A program made the translations under genes and the position numbers. Below the pieces are notes generated by a model. It saw only the letters and a program-made list of their open reading frames with translations. It did no database searches and was not told where the DNA came from. This document shows, piece by piece, positions 4,175 through 24,071 of a stretch of DNA of 24,071 bases; position 1 is the stretch's first letter, and each line of letters begins with the position of its first letter. The stretch is from a virus. The stretch lies in IMG/VR virus record IMGVR_UViG_3300028025_003320, positions 1 to 24,071 of that record; one strand, given 5' to 3'.

Positions 4175-4585
4175 CTAGATCAGCGTAATCGGTGAGATAA
4201 TAGTGGTAGTAGTAGAAGATGCAGAGCCTGCCGCAGCAGTAGTCTTAGGAAAATAAATACCTAAGTTTAATAGTGCATCCATTTTTAAAAGTTCTCCAAC
4301 GCCGCCATCACCAGCAACACCTTGTGCACCAGTTGCTCCCGCAGCTCCTGTAGGTCCAGCTGAACCTGTTGGTCCAGTTGCTCCCGCAGTTCCAGTAGCT
4401 CCTGTGGCTCCAGTAGCACCAGCTACACCGGAAGAGTATGGCAGACCAGTCCACTGATTTACACCGTTACCTACTTTAAATTTTCCGGTATCAGTTTCTA
4501 AACCTAGCTCTCCCTCAGCAAGTGTGGGATTAGTAGACGTCCAGTTTGCAGCCAACCCTCTTCGAAGTTGAATTTTTACTGTCAT
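4175..4585 (-). CDS. Tropism-determinant-like N-terminal domain with collagen-like shaft
   Basis: A 136-residue protein. Residues 1-50 ([20 protein letters not shown], then GELGLETDTGKFKVG and the NQWTGLPY ending) match the N-terminal domain of major tropism determinant and many fibre proteins (Mtd_N type), a small trimerising virion-attachment domain. Residues about 53-93 are Gly-X-Y collagen-like repeats ([20 protein letters not shown]), and the rest is a short Thr/Ser-rich C-terminus with no obvious receptor-binding domain. The ATG overlaps the stop of the 632-residue collagen protein (TAATG), with GGAGGAATT as ribosome-binding site. It is probably an adaptor or short fibre in the same appendage. 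No reverse transcriptase or variable repeat is present, so there is no sign of a diversity-generating system. Confidence 0.85.
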   Translation of the reverse strand: MTVKIQLRRGLAANWTSTNPTLAEGELGLETDTGKFKVGNGVNQWTGLPYSSGVAGATGATGATGTAGATGPTGSAGPTGAAGATGAQGVAGDGGVGELLKMDALLNLGIYFPKTTAAAGSASSTTTTIISPITLI

Positions 4586-6483
4586 TAAATAATTCCTCCA
4601 GCGTCAATCGTAATTGTTCCGCCATAAATAGAGTTTGGAGCACCACCGTCAATATCAAGAATTGTAGTGCTTGCAGGCCCCGTAGGTCCTGTTGAACCGG
4701 TGGCACCTGTGGCACCTGTGGCTCCGCTAGATCCTGTTGGCCCTGGAACAGTAGAGTCAGCTCCCGTAGCGCCAGTAGCTCCGGTAGGCCCTGTTGAACC
4801 TGTTGCCCCATTAGTTCCTGTTGCGCCGGTAGCTCCCGTTGCGCCAGTTGCGCCGTTAGTTCCAGCAGGTCCTTGAATGCTTCCAACATTTACCCATGCA
4901 GATGTTGTTGCAGACCAAACATAAAGAGAACCGGAAATTAAATATCCATCGCCCGGATTTCCTGTTGGATGCGCTGTTTGAAGTTCTCCTAAAGTTGCGT
5001 ATGTACCAAGAATTGTTACGCCAGTACCTTGTGCACCAGTGGCACCAGTTGCACCCGTGGCGCCAGTAGCACCGTTAGTTCCGTTAGTTCCAGCAGCACC
5101 TGTTGCACCTGTCGCACCTGTGGAACCTGTGGCTCCCGTAGGGCCTACAACAGTTGAGTCAGCACCCGTAGCACCAGTTGCGCCCGTAGCACCAGTTATA
5201 GATTGTCCAGTAGATCCAGTTGCACCTGTAGCTCCAGTTGCACCTGTGGCGCCTGTTGGACCAACAATTTGTCCGGCGCTATACCAAGCTGTTCCGTTCC
5301 AAACATAAATATCACCGTCAGCATCAACAATCCAGGCATCGTTTATCGAGTTACCTGTTGGTGGAAGTGCTGCTGTGTTTGCCTTAGATCCCTTAAGTGT
5401 TATAGAAACACCTTGTGGTCCTGTAGCACCAGTTGGGCCTGTAGATCCAGTTGGGCCTACAATTTGTCCTACGTTATCCCATTCATAACCTTCCCAAACA
5501 TAAAGATCGCGCCCAATAAAGTACGCATCATTAATTTGTGGGTTTGTTATTGTTGAAAGTAATCCTGTATTAGCAAGAGTTCCTTGGTACCTAATTGATA
5601 CGCCTTGATCACCCTTAGCACCAGTAGGTCCAGTAGGACCAGGAACTGTAGAAGCCGCTCCGGTTGAACCCGTTGCTCCAGTTGGTCCAGTAACACCAGC
5701 AAGTCCTCTAGGACCTTCAGGACCGCTTGGTCCTGTTGAACCGGTAGATCCAGTCGGTCCAGTAACACCGGTTGGTCCAACATCTCCACGAGGACCGGTA
5801 ACACCTGCAGGTCCAGCTACACCAGCTGTTCCGGTAGCACCAGTAGGTCCGGCTACACCAATAGGTCCAGTATCTCCTGATGGTCCAGTAGCGCCAGTAG
5901 CGCCGCGAATTCCTTGAGTACCTGTTGCACCCGTAGGTCCAGCCTCTCCGGTTGCGCCAGTAGCGCCAGTAGCCCCAACGTTTCCAGTTGGTCCGGTAGG
6001 TCCAGGCACTGTTGATGGCGCACCAGTAGATCCTGTTGCACCTGTTGATCCCGTAGCTCCTTGTGCTCCTGTAGCACCCGTCGCACCAGTTTCTCCACGA
6101 GTACCTCTAGGTCCTTCAGGACCTGTAGCACCCGCTGGTCCTGGAACTGTACTTGCCGCTCCAGTAGGTCCCGTATCACCAGTAGCTCCGCGAGTTCCTT
6201 GCGGACCTGTTGGACCTGTAACACCTGTAGGTCCAAGGTCTCCTGTTAAACCTCGAGGACCAGTAGCACCTGTTGCACCAGCACCAGTTGGACCAGTTGC
6301 TCCGGTTACAGATGCGCCGGTTGCTCCAGTAGGTCCTGTAGCTCCTCTAGGGCCAGTTTCTCCCTGTGGTCCTGTAGGGCCTCTTTCAGCTTCGGCAATT
6401 TCCCCTAAAAGAAAAACGCTAGGGTCATTATTGTCGGAAGGATTTCCAATTAAATTAGGTGTATCAGACACTGAAATCTCCAT
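4585..6483 (-). CDS. Collagen-like fibre protein with three interleaved beta modules
   Basis: A 632-residue protein made mostly of Gly-X-Y triplets (GPTG, GATG, GPRG) from about residue 35 to 605. The triplet runs are interrupted by three related globular modules at about 295-344, 359-409 and 488-538. Each ends in a (D/S)-(L/I)-YVW...W...VG/AGQI strand pattern followed again by G-P-T-G. These modules are common in phage fibres with collagen shafts. The phrase [12 protein letters not shown], or a close variant, recurs between segments. The C-terminus ([20 protein letters not shown]) resembles the short DGG-containing ends of many phage fibres. It overlaps the upstream 365-residue gene by 20 bases. 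It probably forms a long flexible trimeric fibre, and receptor binding is inferred. Confidence 0.9.
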
Positions 6484-16767: not shown

Positions 16768-17826
16768 TTATGAAGCTGCTGCCCAAGGTGTAATTGTAAT
16801 TGTAGCTGTTGAAAGAACATTTGCTGTTCCTGCTGCAACTGACTGTGTTCTGATTGTTCCAGCAACACCCACAACTGAAGCAGTTTGAGCTGATAGAGAA
16901 ACTGCGGTTGTTGCAGTAGTTGCTACTGTAAATGTGTTAGTTGCGTTATCAACAACGGTGTATGTTCCGTTAAGGGCCGCATCTCCGCCAGCAAATGCTG
17001 AAACAGTTACCTTAGTACCTACGCCGTATGCAGCGCCTGCACCTGAAGCAGTGAATACAAGGAGGTTAGAGCCTGAAGCACGAGCTGCTGCGGTAACAGT
17101 CTTAGCTGCGTTTGTAGCTGCTGTAGCTGTTGTGATATTAGCTGCTTCGTAACCAGCATCCTTAAGCTCGTCAAGAGCTAGTGCTGTTGTTTCGCCGAGT
17201 ACGTTAGGTACTACGATGTAAGGAATTCCAGCACCATCAGCTGCTGAACGAGCTGTTGTCTTCTCTACCTTACCGTACCACTGTCCTGTAATAAGGCCAG
17301 CGTTAGCTGAGTTAGTTACGGTGAACTTTAGCTTATCTGCTGAAGCAACTGTTGCTGCTGAGAGGTTATAAGCAGAAGCTGTAAGGCCGGTAATGTTTAC
17401 TACATCGCCAGCTGAAAGTTCGTTTTGTGATGTGTATGTAACAGTTGTTCCGTTACCTGAAGCTGCTGTAACCATGTAGTTACCTGCTGCTTCTACGAAT
17501 GAAGGGAAGTTAGCCCACTCTGCTTCAATATCTGAGTGGTTGTTTAAGTCTGGGTTTAGGCGTGCGCTAGCAACAGTGCTCTTATTTGTCCACTGGCCGT
17601 TTTGTGAGCCGCCGTATGTTTCTGTAGCTGTTGGGGTTCCATCGGCACGCTCGTCATTTGGCTGAGCTGGGCGAGATCCCCATACAAAATCTACACGAAG
17701 GTTTCCTGCGGAATCGGTAGCATTACCGTTGTTGTTAACTCCGGCTGGTTGTGCTGCAATTGCTACAGACTCTGCGCCCGTAGCGTTGTCAGATCCAATA
17801 GCTGCTGGTAAGTTATAGCTTGACAT
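16768..17826 (-). CDS. PASTA-containing virion or surface protein with inserted beta modules
   Basis: A 352-residue protein of low charge, rich in Ala, Thr, Val and Asn. Residues 203-232 (YIVVPNVLGETTALALDELK, then DAGYEAANI) match the first half of a PASTA repeat. The expected second half (GTIRTQSVAAGTANVLSTAT, ending ITITP) occurs only at 323-346. Between them lies a ~90-residue insert containing GVGTKVTVSAFAGGDAALNG and TYTVVDNATNTFTV. A related module is at about 128-172 (LSAGDVVNITGLTASAYN). There is no signal peptide. PASTA repeats bind peptidoglycan or muropeptides in host proteins; in a phage the likely use is a decoration or fibre protein that touches the cell wall. AAAAAGGAC precedes the ATG. 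Confidence 0.78.
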   Translation of the reverse strand: MSSYNLPAAIGSDNATGAESVAIAAQPAGVNNNGNATDSAGNLRVDFVWGSRPAQPNDERADGTPTATETYGGSQNGQWTNKSTVASARLNPDLNNHSDIEAEWANFPSFVEAAGNYMVTAASGNGTTVTYTSQNELSAGDVVNITGLTASAYNLSAATVASADKLKFTVTNSANAGLITGQWYGKVEKTTARSAADGAGIPYIVVPNVLGETTALALDELKDAGYEAANITTATAATNAAKTVTAAARASGSNLLVFTASGAGAAYGVGTKVTVSAFAGGDAALNGTYTVVDNATNTFTVATTATTAVSLSAQTASVVGVAGTIRTQSVAAGTANVLSTATITITPWAAAS

Positions 17827-22793: not shown

Positions 22794-23360
22794 TTACGCT
22801 TCTTGTACGAAGGTATGAATCTCTCCACCTGAATAGATGTCATGCTTACACGCCGCTTCAATTGCACGACGTAAAATCTTTTCAGCAGCTGCGGGCGTCT
22901 TAGCTTTTGAATAATCTAGGGCTTCTAAGGCTCCGAGTGCAATATCTCCACCAGATCCAGCATAGTAGACATTACGGGCTTCTCTATCCCAAGAGTAATC
23001 ATTAAAGATCGGGTAGAGAGTTCCTCTTACTGAGACGATAAGATTAGAGTCTTGCCATGCTGCATCGCCATCTTCTTTACCTTCAAAGCCTGCATCTTGG
23101 AATGCCTTACGCATGCTAGGGATGAACTTCTTAGTCATGAATACATCTAGATCTTCTCCTGCACGTGGCTTAGGAGGTTTCCATCCGAACTGTGTAATGT
23201 TTCCACCACGAGATGCACCAGAGACAGCTATCAATACGCCGTTGTTATCTATGACCTTTGATGTTGCAAGTTCCATAAAACGACCATCTTCATCTGATGC
23301 CCGCGAATCACACCCTATGACTGACCATCCGTTTCCCTGTATAGCCACAAGTGTAGTCAA
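22794..23360 (-). CDS. Proteasome-beta-like Ntn hydrolase
   Basis: A 188-residue protein close to 20S proteasome beta or HslV subunits. After removal of Met1 it starts TTLVAIQGNGWSVIGCDSRA, so Thr is N-terminal with no propeptide. Mature Asp17 lies in CDSRAS, and Lys34 in TSKVIDNNG fits the catalytic Lys33 with one extra residue. VYYAGSGGDIALGALEAL matches the Ser129 region. RRAIEAACKHDIYSGGE matches the conserved D-x-x-S-G-G (Asp166, Ser169) of the active site. It should be a threonine protease that assembles in rings. No alpha subunit or ATPase lies in this window. It could process capsid proteins, degrade host proteins or work with host regulators. It lies between Hsp20 and the coupled cassette. 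Confidence 0.85.
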   Translation of the reverse strand: MTTLVAIQGNGWSVIGCDSRASDEDGRFMELATSKVIDNNGVLIAVSGASRGGNITQFGWKPPKPRAGEDLDVFMTKKFIPSMRKAFQDAGFEGKEDGDAAWQDSNLIVSVRGTLYPIFNDYSWDREARNVYYAGSGGDIALGALEALDYSKAKTPAAAEKILRRAIEAACKHDIYSGGEIHTFVQEA

Positions 23361-23404
23361 TGTAAAGCCCTCTCGTTTGGATGCCCGTAAAGCATACCAT
23401 AGAC

Positions 23405-23451: not shown

Positions 23452-23904
23452 TTACTTAATTGCTATGATTTTAGGCTTTTTCTCCTCAGGAAGCTCTCTA
23501 CGAAGAGTGACAGTAAGCATACCGTCTGAAAACTCTGCCTCAGTGACATCTACGTACTCAGCTAGAGGAAAGACGTGCTCAAAGTCCCTACGAGCGATCC
23601 CCTGGTGTACATAGTCAAATTCACTAGGTGAGAGAGTTGTATTGATACCCTCCCCCGAGATTTTTAATACTTGATCCTGGACCTCAACTGTAATTGCATC
23701 TTTATTGAATCCAGCTAGAGCGACCTCAACAATGTAATGATCCTTGGTGATAGCTCTAATGTTATATGGAGGATACTTCTCAGAATTAGCTTTCTTTAGA
23801 ATTTCTTGAAGCATATTGAACTGATAGGCGTATCCAACCCCCCGGCTATGTAGGTTATCAACCCAGGCATTGGCAGAAGTTGGTGTATAGGTAGCAACGT
23901 GCAT
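23452..23904 (-). CDS. Small heat-shock protein, Hsp20/alpha-crystallin family
   Basis: A 150-residue protein. YPPYNIRAITKDHYIVEVAL at 44-63 begins the alpha-crystallin domain, and GFNKDAITVEVQDQVLKISG continues it. GIARRDFEHVFPLAEYVDV near 102-120 and FSDGMLTVTLRRELPE near 125-140 complete the domain, and the C-terminal I-A-I (147-149) is the I-x-I tail motif used in oligomer assembly. It is an ATP-independent holdase. The ATG at 23904 is chosen because AAGGAG lies seven bases upstream; a longer reading from 23961 would overlap the preceding gene and lacks a site. Hsp20 genes are common in T4-like cyanophages and may help capsid or tail folding. Confidence 0.92.
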   Translation of the reverse strand: MHVATYTPTSANAWVDNLHSRGVGYAYQFNMLQEILKKANSEKYPPYNIRAITKDHYIVEVALAGFNKDAITVEVQDQVLKISGEGINTTLSPSEFDYVHQGIARRDFEHVFPLAEYVDVTEAEFSDGMLTVTLRRELPEEKKPKIIAIK

Positions 23905-23922
23905 AATATATCTCCTTAGACG

Positions 23923-23931
23923 ATATAAGTT
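23923..23931 (-). promoter_or_regulatory. Candidate promoter motif AACTTATAT before Hsp20
   Basis: The minus strand reads AACTTATAT 19 bases before the Hsp20 ATG. The identical nonamer is found 22 bases before the first gene of the terminase block (15989-15997). It could be a phage-specific late promoter -10. The distance to the start codon would leave only a short leader holding the ribosome-binding site. Confidence 0.35.
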
Positions 23932-23953
23932 AATTGTCCCCCGATTGGCAGGA

Positions 23954-24071
23954 CTAACCAATCATAACACCGGGCCACTGCCAAATATTCCCCCGACCTT
24001 GAAAATTTTTAGCCACTGCCTGCCCAATATAGGTCATGGCCTCCTGTCTCACCTGGCGATAAGGTTCATAG
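23954..24071 (-). CDS. C-terminal end of an unknown gene (cut by window edge)
   Basis: On the minus strand the frame is open from the window edge to a TAG at 23954. It gives about 38 residues ending AKNFQGRGNIWQWPGVMIG. It stops about 50 bases before the Hsp20 start with no terminator between, so it may be co-transcribed. Alternatively the internal ATG near 24037 with AGGAGG two bases upstream could start a very short peptide, which is less likely. No family can be assigned from this fragment. Confidence 0.5.
   Translation of the reverse strand, partial: YEPYRQVRQEAMTYIGQAVAKNFQGRGNIWQWPGVMIG

Follow-up and report, generated by a model that had tools for sequence, protein, structure and literature searches.

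Proteasome-type proteases such as HslV and the 20S proteasome work with AAA+ partners; the Met preceding the Thr is normally removed, and Thr1 is the nucleophile in assembled rings. In 2021, Fuchs, Alva and Lupas described 22 new proteasome homologues, found no co-occurring AAA+ partner for the novel homologues, and listed PPH and AAH, which occur in phages, as functionally unknown, although they found no Actinobacteria-specific phage carrying AAH (PMC8665760). The same work gives an acidic pore loop as a trait of BPH, the betaproteobacterial proteasome homologue, links this loop to the absence of an unfoldase, and describes connectase, a proteasome homologue acting as a monomeric ligase (PMC8665760). 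BPH and Anbu showed no activity in vitro despite intact sites, and a Ser-for-Thr swap at position 1 has been reported for some BPH proteins and for CodW (PMC5777263). The gene list of Alteromonas phage V22 also includes a 'proteasome-like' gene (PMC7289586). Because phage proteasome homologues (PPH and AAH) were already known in 2021 (PMC8665760), the gene described here is not the first, and a first-pass annotation that called a stand-alone phage gene of this kind unusual has to be corrected, since both that study and PHROG 1040 already cover such genes. What is new is the extension to actinophages, among them cultivated phages whose hosts for the most part have no proteasome.

The gene lies in a 24-kb IMG/VR fragment (the window, meaning the whole stretch of DNA that was analysed). 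The coordinates of the original call hold exactly, and an ORF check of the window placed the gene on the minus strand, the plus-strand frame being riddled with stops (Table 1). Support for the TTG start comes from 68 relatives whose ATG, GTG or TTG occupies this same position, most of them behind a ribosome-binding-site-like sequence of the GAGAGGG type or GGAG; most of these relatives also have an in-frame stop 0-12 codons before the start. With the start conserved in this way, the earlier reading that Thr directly follows Met, with no propeptide, is retained. Residues are numbered from this Thr (Thr1).

Table 1. Coordinates of the proteasome-like gene, its predicted functional residues and adjoining features in the window.
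Feature	Position	Strand	Remarks
Proteasome-like Ntn protein gene, 188 aa	22794..23360	minus	TTG start at 23360; stop codon counted in
Thr1 codon, predicted nucleophile exposed by Met removal	23355..23357	minus	Invariant in 53 close and 71 diverse homologues
Asp17 codon	23307..23309	minus	Invariant in 53 close and 71 diverse homologues
Lys34 codon (Lys33 equivalent)	23256..23258	minus	Invariant; preceding loop variable in length
Acidic low-confidence loop AGFEGKEDGDAAWQDS, residues 90-105, pore-loop position	23046..23093	minus	Low-pLDDT block after the second helix
GSGG turn (G134-S-G-G137), equivalent of the proteasome Ser129 region	22947..22958	minus	G-x-G invariant, Ser not
DIYSGG (D173-I-Y-S-G-G178), equivalent of 20S-beta Asp166-x-x-Ser169-Gly-Gly	22824..22841	minus	Invariant in close relatives, not family-wide
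GAGAGGG, ribosome-binding-site-like	23368..23374	minus	5' of the start; relatives have similar sites in the same place
Hsp20 small heat-shock protein gene, directly upstream	23452..23961	minus	PF00011, E 4.1e-14; phrog_432, E 1.1e-35

The protein matched Pfam PF00227 with an E value of 5.8e-7 (29.8 bits against a cut-off of 22.4; in a six-frame search the score was 18.8 bits, below the cut-off), and PHROG 1040, 'peptidase HslV family', over nearly its full length (residues 1-186, E 3.9e-25). AlphaFold2, run as a monomer prediction on an alignment of 71 viral homologues only, returned a model with a pLDDT of 92.3 and a pTM of 0.88, in which helices H1 to H4 are present and the C-terminal H5 is absent. 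Helices at residues 50-59 and 71-89 precede the next strand pair in the model, the second of these being a 19-residue helix in the H2 position, and the pore-loop position has a median net charge of -4 in the Thr-Thr/Thr-Ala set of homologues. When the model was compared with the PDB using Foldseek, BPH (5ovs/5ovu) was the best match (TM 0.70-0.75; E about 1e-10), and HslV and 20S beta also matched with E below 1e-8. More than 1,100 PDB entries matched at E 0.001 or better, and the 50 listed were all proteasome, HslV or BPH. Comparison with viral models gave 37 matches at E <0.001, the best with TM 0.91-0.93 and some labelled HslV or proteasome. The Pfam, PHROG and Foldseek matches far exceed chance, and because they agree with the AlphaFold2 model, we conclude that the 188-aa protein is a proteasome-superfamily Ntn protein with a predicted alpha-beta-beta-alpha four-layer fold. 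The first-pass assignment to a proteasome/HslV-type Ntn fold is thus borne out by AlphaFold2 and Foldseek (BPH, HslV, 20S beta); as far as fold and family are concerned, we found neither a non-Ntn fold nor a non-peptidase Ntn family, with no acyltransferase-like or amidotransferase-like protein among the PDB matches listed. Membership of the established peptidase families was rejected as well on curated cut-offs, both for HslV (TIGR03692, 18.3 bits against 157.75; NF003964, 19.0 bits against 137) and for archaeal and bacterial 20S beta (TIGR03634, 29.7 bits against 224; TIGR03690, no match at E 1).

The active-site features named in the first-pass annotation (Thr1, Asp17, Lys34, GSGG and D-x-x-S-G-G) were all found in the 188-aa protein, and T1, T2, D17, K34, GSGG and DIYSGG are all invariant in 53 distinct close relatives. 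The median pairwise dN/dS of these relatives was ~0.095 (an approximate value, as dS was high in many pairs), and a ratio near 0.1 indicates purifying selection on the protease gene. T1, D17 and the Lys did not vary among 71 diverse viral homologues (21-85% identity), position 135 was S, C, T or V, and D-x-x-S-G-G was gone in most, although it is retained in the close relatives of the window protein. The claim of a complete catalytic set therefore stands for the intact Thr-Asp-Lys triad; across the 71 homologues, only these three residues of the set are invariant. Asp/Lys spacing was the canonical 17/33 in 42 of the 71 and 17/34 in another 21; the Lys lies at 34 rather than 33 because of a one-residue insertion in the preceding loop, the length of which varies family-wide. 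The DIYSGG sequence aligns with DDDSATGG of 20S beta, that is, with the 20S-beta D-x-x-T/S-G-G. In the homologue from a marine relative, Tenacibaculum phage pT24 (L079:3001-3597), position 1 is Ser, not Thr. An intact site is not in itself proof of proteolysis, given the inactivity of BPH and Anbu in vitro (PMC5777263).

A 99.5-kb relative, G001, matches the window in two blocks that jointly cover most of it, as would fit a circularly permuted genome of some 100 kb. We searched for partner genes in 20 near-full-length relatives, made up of 18 contigs of 76-136 kb and others such as DSL-LC01; each carries exactly one proteasome-family copy. No alpha subunit was found in these 20 relatives, where the single family match per genome argues against both a concealed alpha subunit and a further copy, and AAA_2 gave no match over the cut-off that would indicate an HslU/ClpX-type unfoldase. 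Thus the check proposed in the first-pass annotation, for an alpha subunit or AAA+ partner elsewhere in the genome, yielded no dedicated one of either type. PF00004 matches over the cut-off in the relatives include a ~480-aa MoxR-type AAA_5 protein with a VWA neighbour, checked in G001, where the pair occupies G001:C1:81355-84767 (L264). A role for this ~480-aa protein as the unfoldase is unsupported, as it is MoxR-type and sits beside VWA in G001 and none is annotated in Hum25, a temperate Arthrobacter phage of 42.7 kb that carries the protease gene and has no AAA+ protease partner annotated. In the annotation of DSL-LC01, an AAA family ATPase adjoins a 'cobalamin biosynthesis protein'.

The neighbourhood of the gene is variable. 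Hsp20 is encoded in 14 of the 20 relatives, only sometimes adjacent to the protease gene and often distant from it, and its absence from the other 6 weakens the case for Hsp20 as an obligate partner. Hsp20 genes are also frequent in cyanophages. The commonest arrangement, a KTSC-like protein followed by the protease and a PASTA-like protein, accounts for 36 of 69 loci, and two alternative neighbour sets account for 8 loci each. In the window, a 352-aa protein with a weak PASTA-domain match is encoded at 16768-17826, and its homologue lies directly downstream of the protease in 41 of the 69 loci; this PASTA-like protein had no match in annotated phages. Near the tail genes, the window also encodes a 632-aa collagen-like repeat protein (4585-6483; PF01391, E 2.5e-48).

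Homologues of the protease were recovered by tblastn from 27 annotated phage records, each at <60% identity, and 68 loci with 77-96% identity came from an IMG/VR scan; a further, limited IMG/VR scan confirmed at least 580 stretches that carry the branch. In a tree of 58 sequences, the window family forms one clade (support 92/88) with the homologues from DSL-LC01, Hum25, Pitbull, Pumpernickel and Planktophila phage E7; HslV, 20S beta and the Thr-Cys group of other phages all fall outside it. The tree has long branches, and because support at its deep forks is moderate, it supports the actinophage grouping but not the exact placement of this clade relative to HslV or 20S. The clade comprises the ~100-kb freshwater group, phages of Arthrobacter, Microbacterium and an Actinomycetia bacterium, and cultivated 'Ca. 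Planktophila' phages, and every member with a host on record infects actinobacteria. The last of these are two in number, LanE43-AprE7 and LanE43-AprF5 (PMC10202952; OX376640 and OX376641, listed as 'ct2KA10'), and both carry the homologue. We conclude that the actinophage branch of proteasome homologues is large and appears to be previously undescribed. A DNA search of the phage collection found nothing near the window sequence, a profile built from the close relatives gave no confirmed match in genome contigs, and the same profile gave no match in 397 actinobacterial genomes in a search run without a positive control. Outside the actinophage clade, a 'hypothetical protein' on Sinorhizobium fredii plasmid pSfreGR64b (L330:5001-5546) is a Thr-Cys viral-type member of the proteasome family; its gene lies within a nitrogen-fixation cluster, flanked by nifQ and iron-sulfur assembly/nifS genes, and it has homologues on further rhizobial plasmids.

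At least two WhiB genes per genome were present in all 20 relatives, which points to actinobacterial hosts. The GC content of the window is 43-47%, near that of LanE-43 (46.5%) and its phages (44.7-44.8%; PMC10202952), and, taken with the WhiB genes, this suggests that the window phage probably infects a low-GC freshwater actinobacterium. As candidate hosts we considered the Nanopelagicales, the order of Ca. Planktophila. No PF00227 protein was found in 147 of 151 Nanopelagicales genomes; the other 4 had two matches each, as expected for 20S alpha plus beta. HslU over the cut-off was found in 0 of the 151, whereas ClpX-like AAA+ genes, appearing as HslU matches below the cut-off, were present in all of them. 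The earlier suggestion that the host supplies an unfoldase is accordingly narrowed: HslU would not be available if the host belongs to the Nanopelagicales, and only unrelated AAA+ proteins such as ClpX would be left as candidates.

The reading to which we lean, by a modest degree, is that the gene encodes a BPH-like, homo-oligomeric, propeptide-less N-terminal-threonine peptidase of group I, on the HslV/BPH side, that is activated by removal of Met and acts without a dedicated unfoldase. The compact layout, with H1-H4 and no H5, fits the description of group I in PMC8665760. From these features we infer a peptidase whose Met1 would be removed by the host methionine aminopeptidase, exposing a Thr1 that would be activated by Asp17 and Lys34. 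Identical subunits would stack into a double ring, as in HslV and BPH, with the active sites in the inner chamber and the acidic loop (residues 90-105) lining the ring entrance. Its substrates may be unfolded or loosely folded proteins made during infection, degraded independently of ATP and of any dedicated AAA+ unfoldase, and in low-GC freshwater actinobacteria the phage protein would be the only proteasome-type protease of the cell. A broader proposal, which we regard as doubtful though conceivable, is that the actinophage branch installs a single-subunit proteasome in hosts that have no proteasome-family protease, either for unfoldase-free degradation at the time of infection or as the first proteasome-fold protease of virion maturation.

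The main alternative is that the protein is a virion-morphogenesis protease that cuts a head, scaffold or internal virion protein in place of a classical prohead protease. In Planktophila phage E7 (LanE43-AprE7, L335:7500-8036), the gene begins 17 bp beyond the portal gene, with scaffold-like and capsid genes downstream of it, a place often taken by a prohead protease; in Hum25 it would be some 1.2 kb away from the terminase genes, provided that the genome ends join. In the window group the gene shares its strand with the terminase, portal and capsid genes and lies upstream of them, often between the KTSC-like and PASTA-like proteins, and profile searches recognised no prohead protease among the head-region proteins scanned. 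However, the capsid protein (71-74% identity) and the terminase (51-53%) also occur in BRock-group Streptomyces phages, and the protease gene is present in none of four of these, so that this capsid type does not need the protease; moreover, homologues in many other phages lie among nucleotide-metabolism genes, far from head genes. The placement of the gene in a virion module by the first-pass annotation thus holds for E7 and not for the relatives in those other phages. The position directly after the portal gene in E7 speaks for a morphogenesis role, which we nevertheless consider unlikely.

Docking on a host AAA+ unfoldase (ClpX, ClpC, or ARC/Mpa where present), which the phage protein would redirect to chosen host or defence proteins, has the precedent of HslV and 20S and could draw on the ClpX-like proteins of the Nanopelagicales. 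Yet HslU over the cut-off is absent from that order, the 69 loci of the relatives show no fixed partner gene, and the novel homologues of Fuchs et al. had no co-occurring AAA+ (PMC8665760), and we judge such docking distinctly improbable. It is also conceivable that the protein is no protease in practice and that, as a monomeric Ntn enzyme like connectase (PMC8665760), it ligates or processes a single specific peptide. In the model, however, the two-helix S3/S4 insertion of connectase is missing and both helix pairs are kept, unlike in connectase, and the nearest folds found by Foldseek are the ring-forming BPH and HslV, which leaves a connectase-like activity very improbable.

With one subunit, no propeptide and no known partner, the protein is the simplest proteasome-like system for study. 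The order of 'Ca. Planktophila', dominant freshwater bacteria, is almost wholly without proteasome-family genes, and its two cultivated phages carry the protease; this is a clean setting for the role of a viral proteasome, as there should be no 20S or HslV of the host to hide its effect. The phage homologues left functionally unknown in PMC8665760 included no actinophage AAH, whereas the present branch is actinophage.

Compared with the systems described previously, the window protein is a full-length match to PHROG 1040, and the phage homologues in that group have the same Thr-Asp-Lys set; PHROG 1040 pools several deep branches, and the window protein belongs to the actinophage branch inside it. 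With HslV and 20S beta it shares the fold and the Thr1/Asp17/Lys33 set, and with HslV of E. coli the Met-Thr-Thr start, but it scores only 18-30 bits against HslV and 20S-beta profiles with cut-offs of 137-224 and is accompanied in the 20 relatives by neither an HslU-type match over the cut-off nor an alpha subunit. It has the 20S-type D-x-x-S-G-G, which HslV lacks, whereas 20S beta has a propeptide and an alpha subunit and the window protein has Thr directly after Met and one family copy per genome. AAH, compared here by layout only, has in common the group I layout (H1-H4, no H5), the lack of a propeptide and the occurrence in phages and Actinobacteria. PPH is likewise viral, of group I and encoded by a stand-alone gene, but it has about 140 residues and no H2 (PMC8665760), whereas the window protein has 188 residues and a helix in the H2 position. 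BPH shares the acidic pore-loop position and the absence of a known unfoldase and is the best fold match in the PDB, although it is bacterial rather than viral and the two proteins are only 18-22% identical in the structural alignment.
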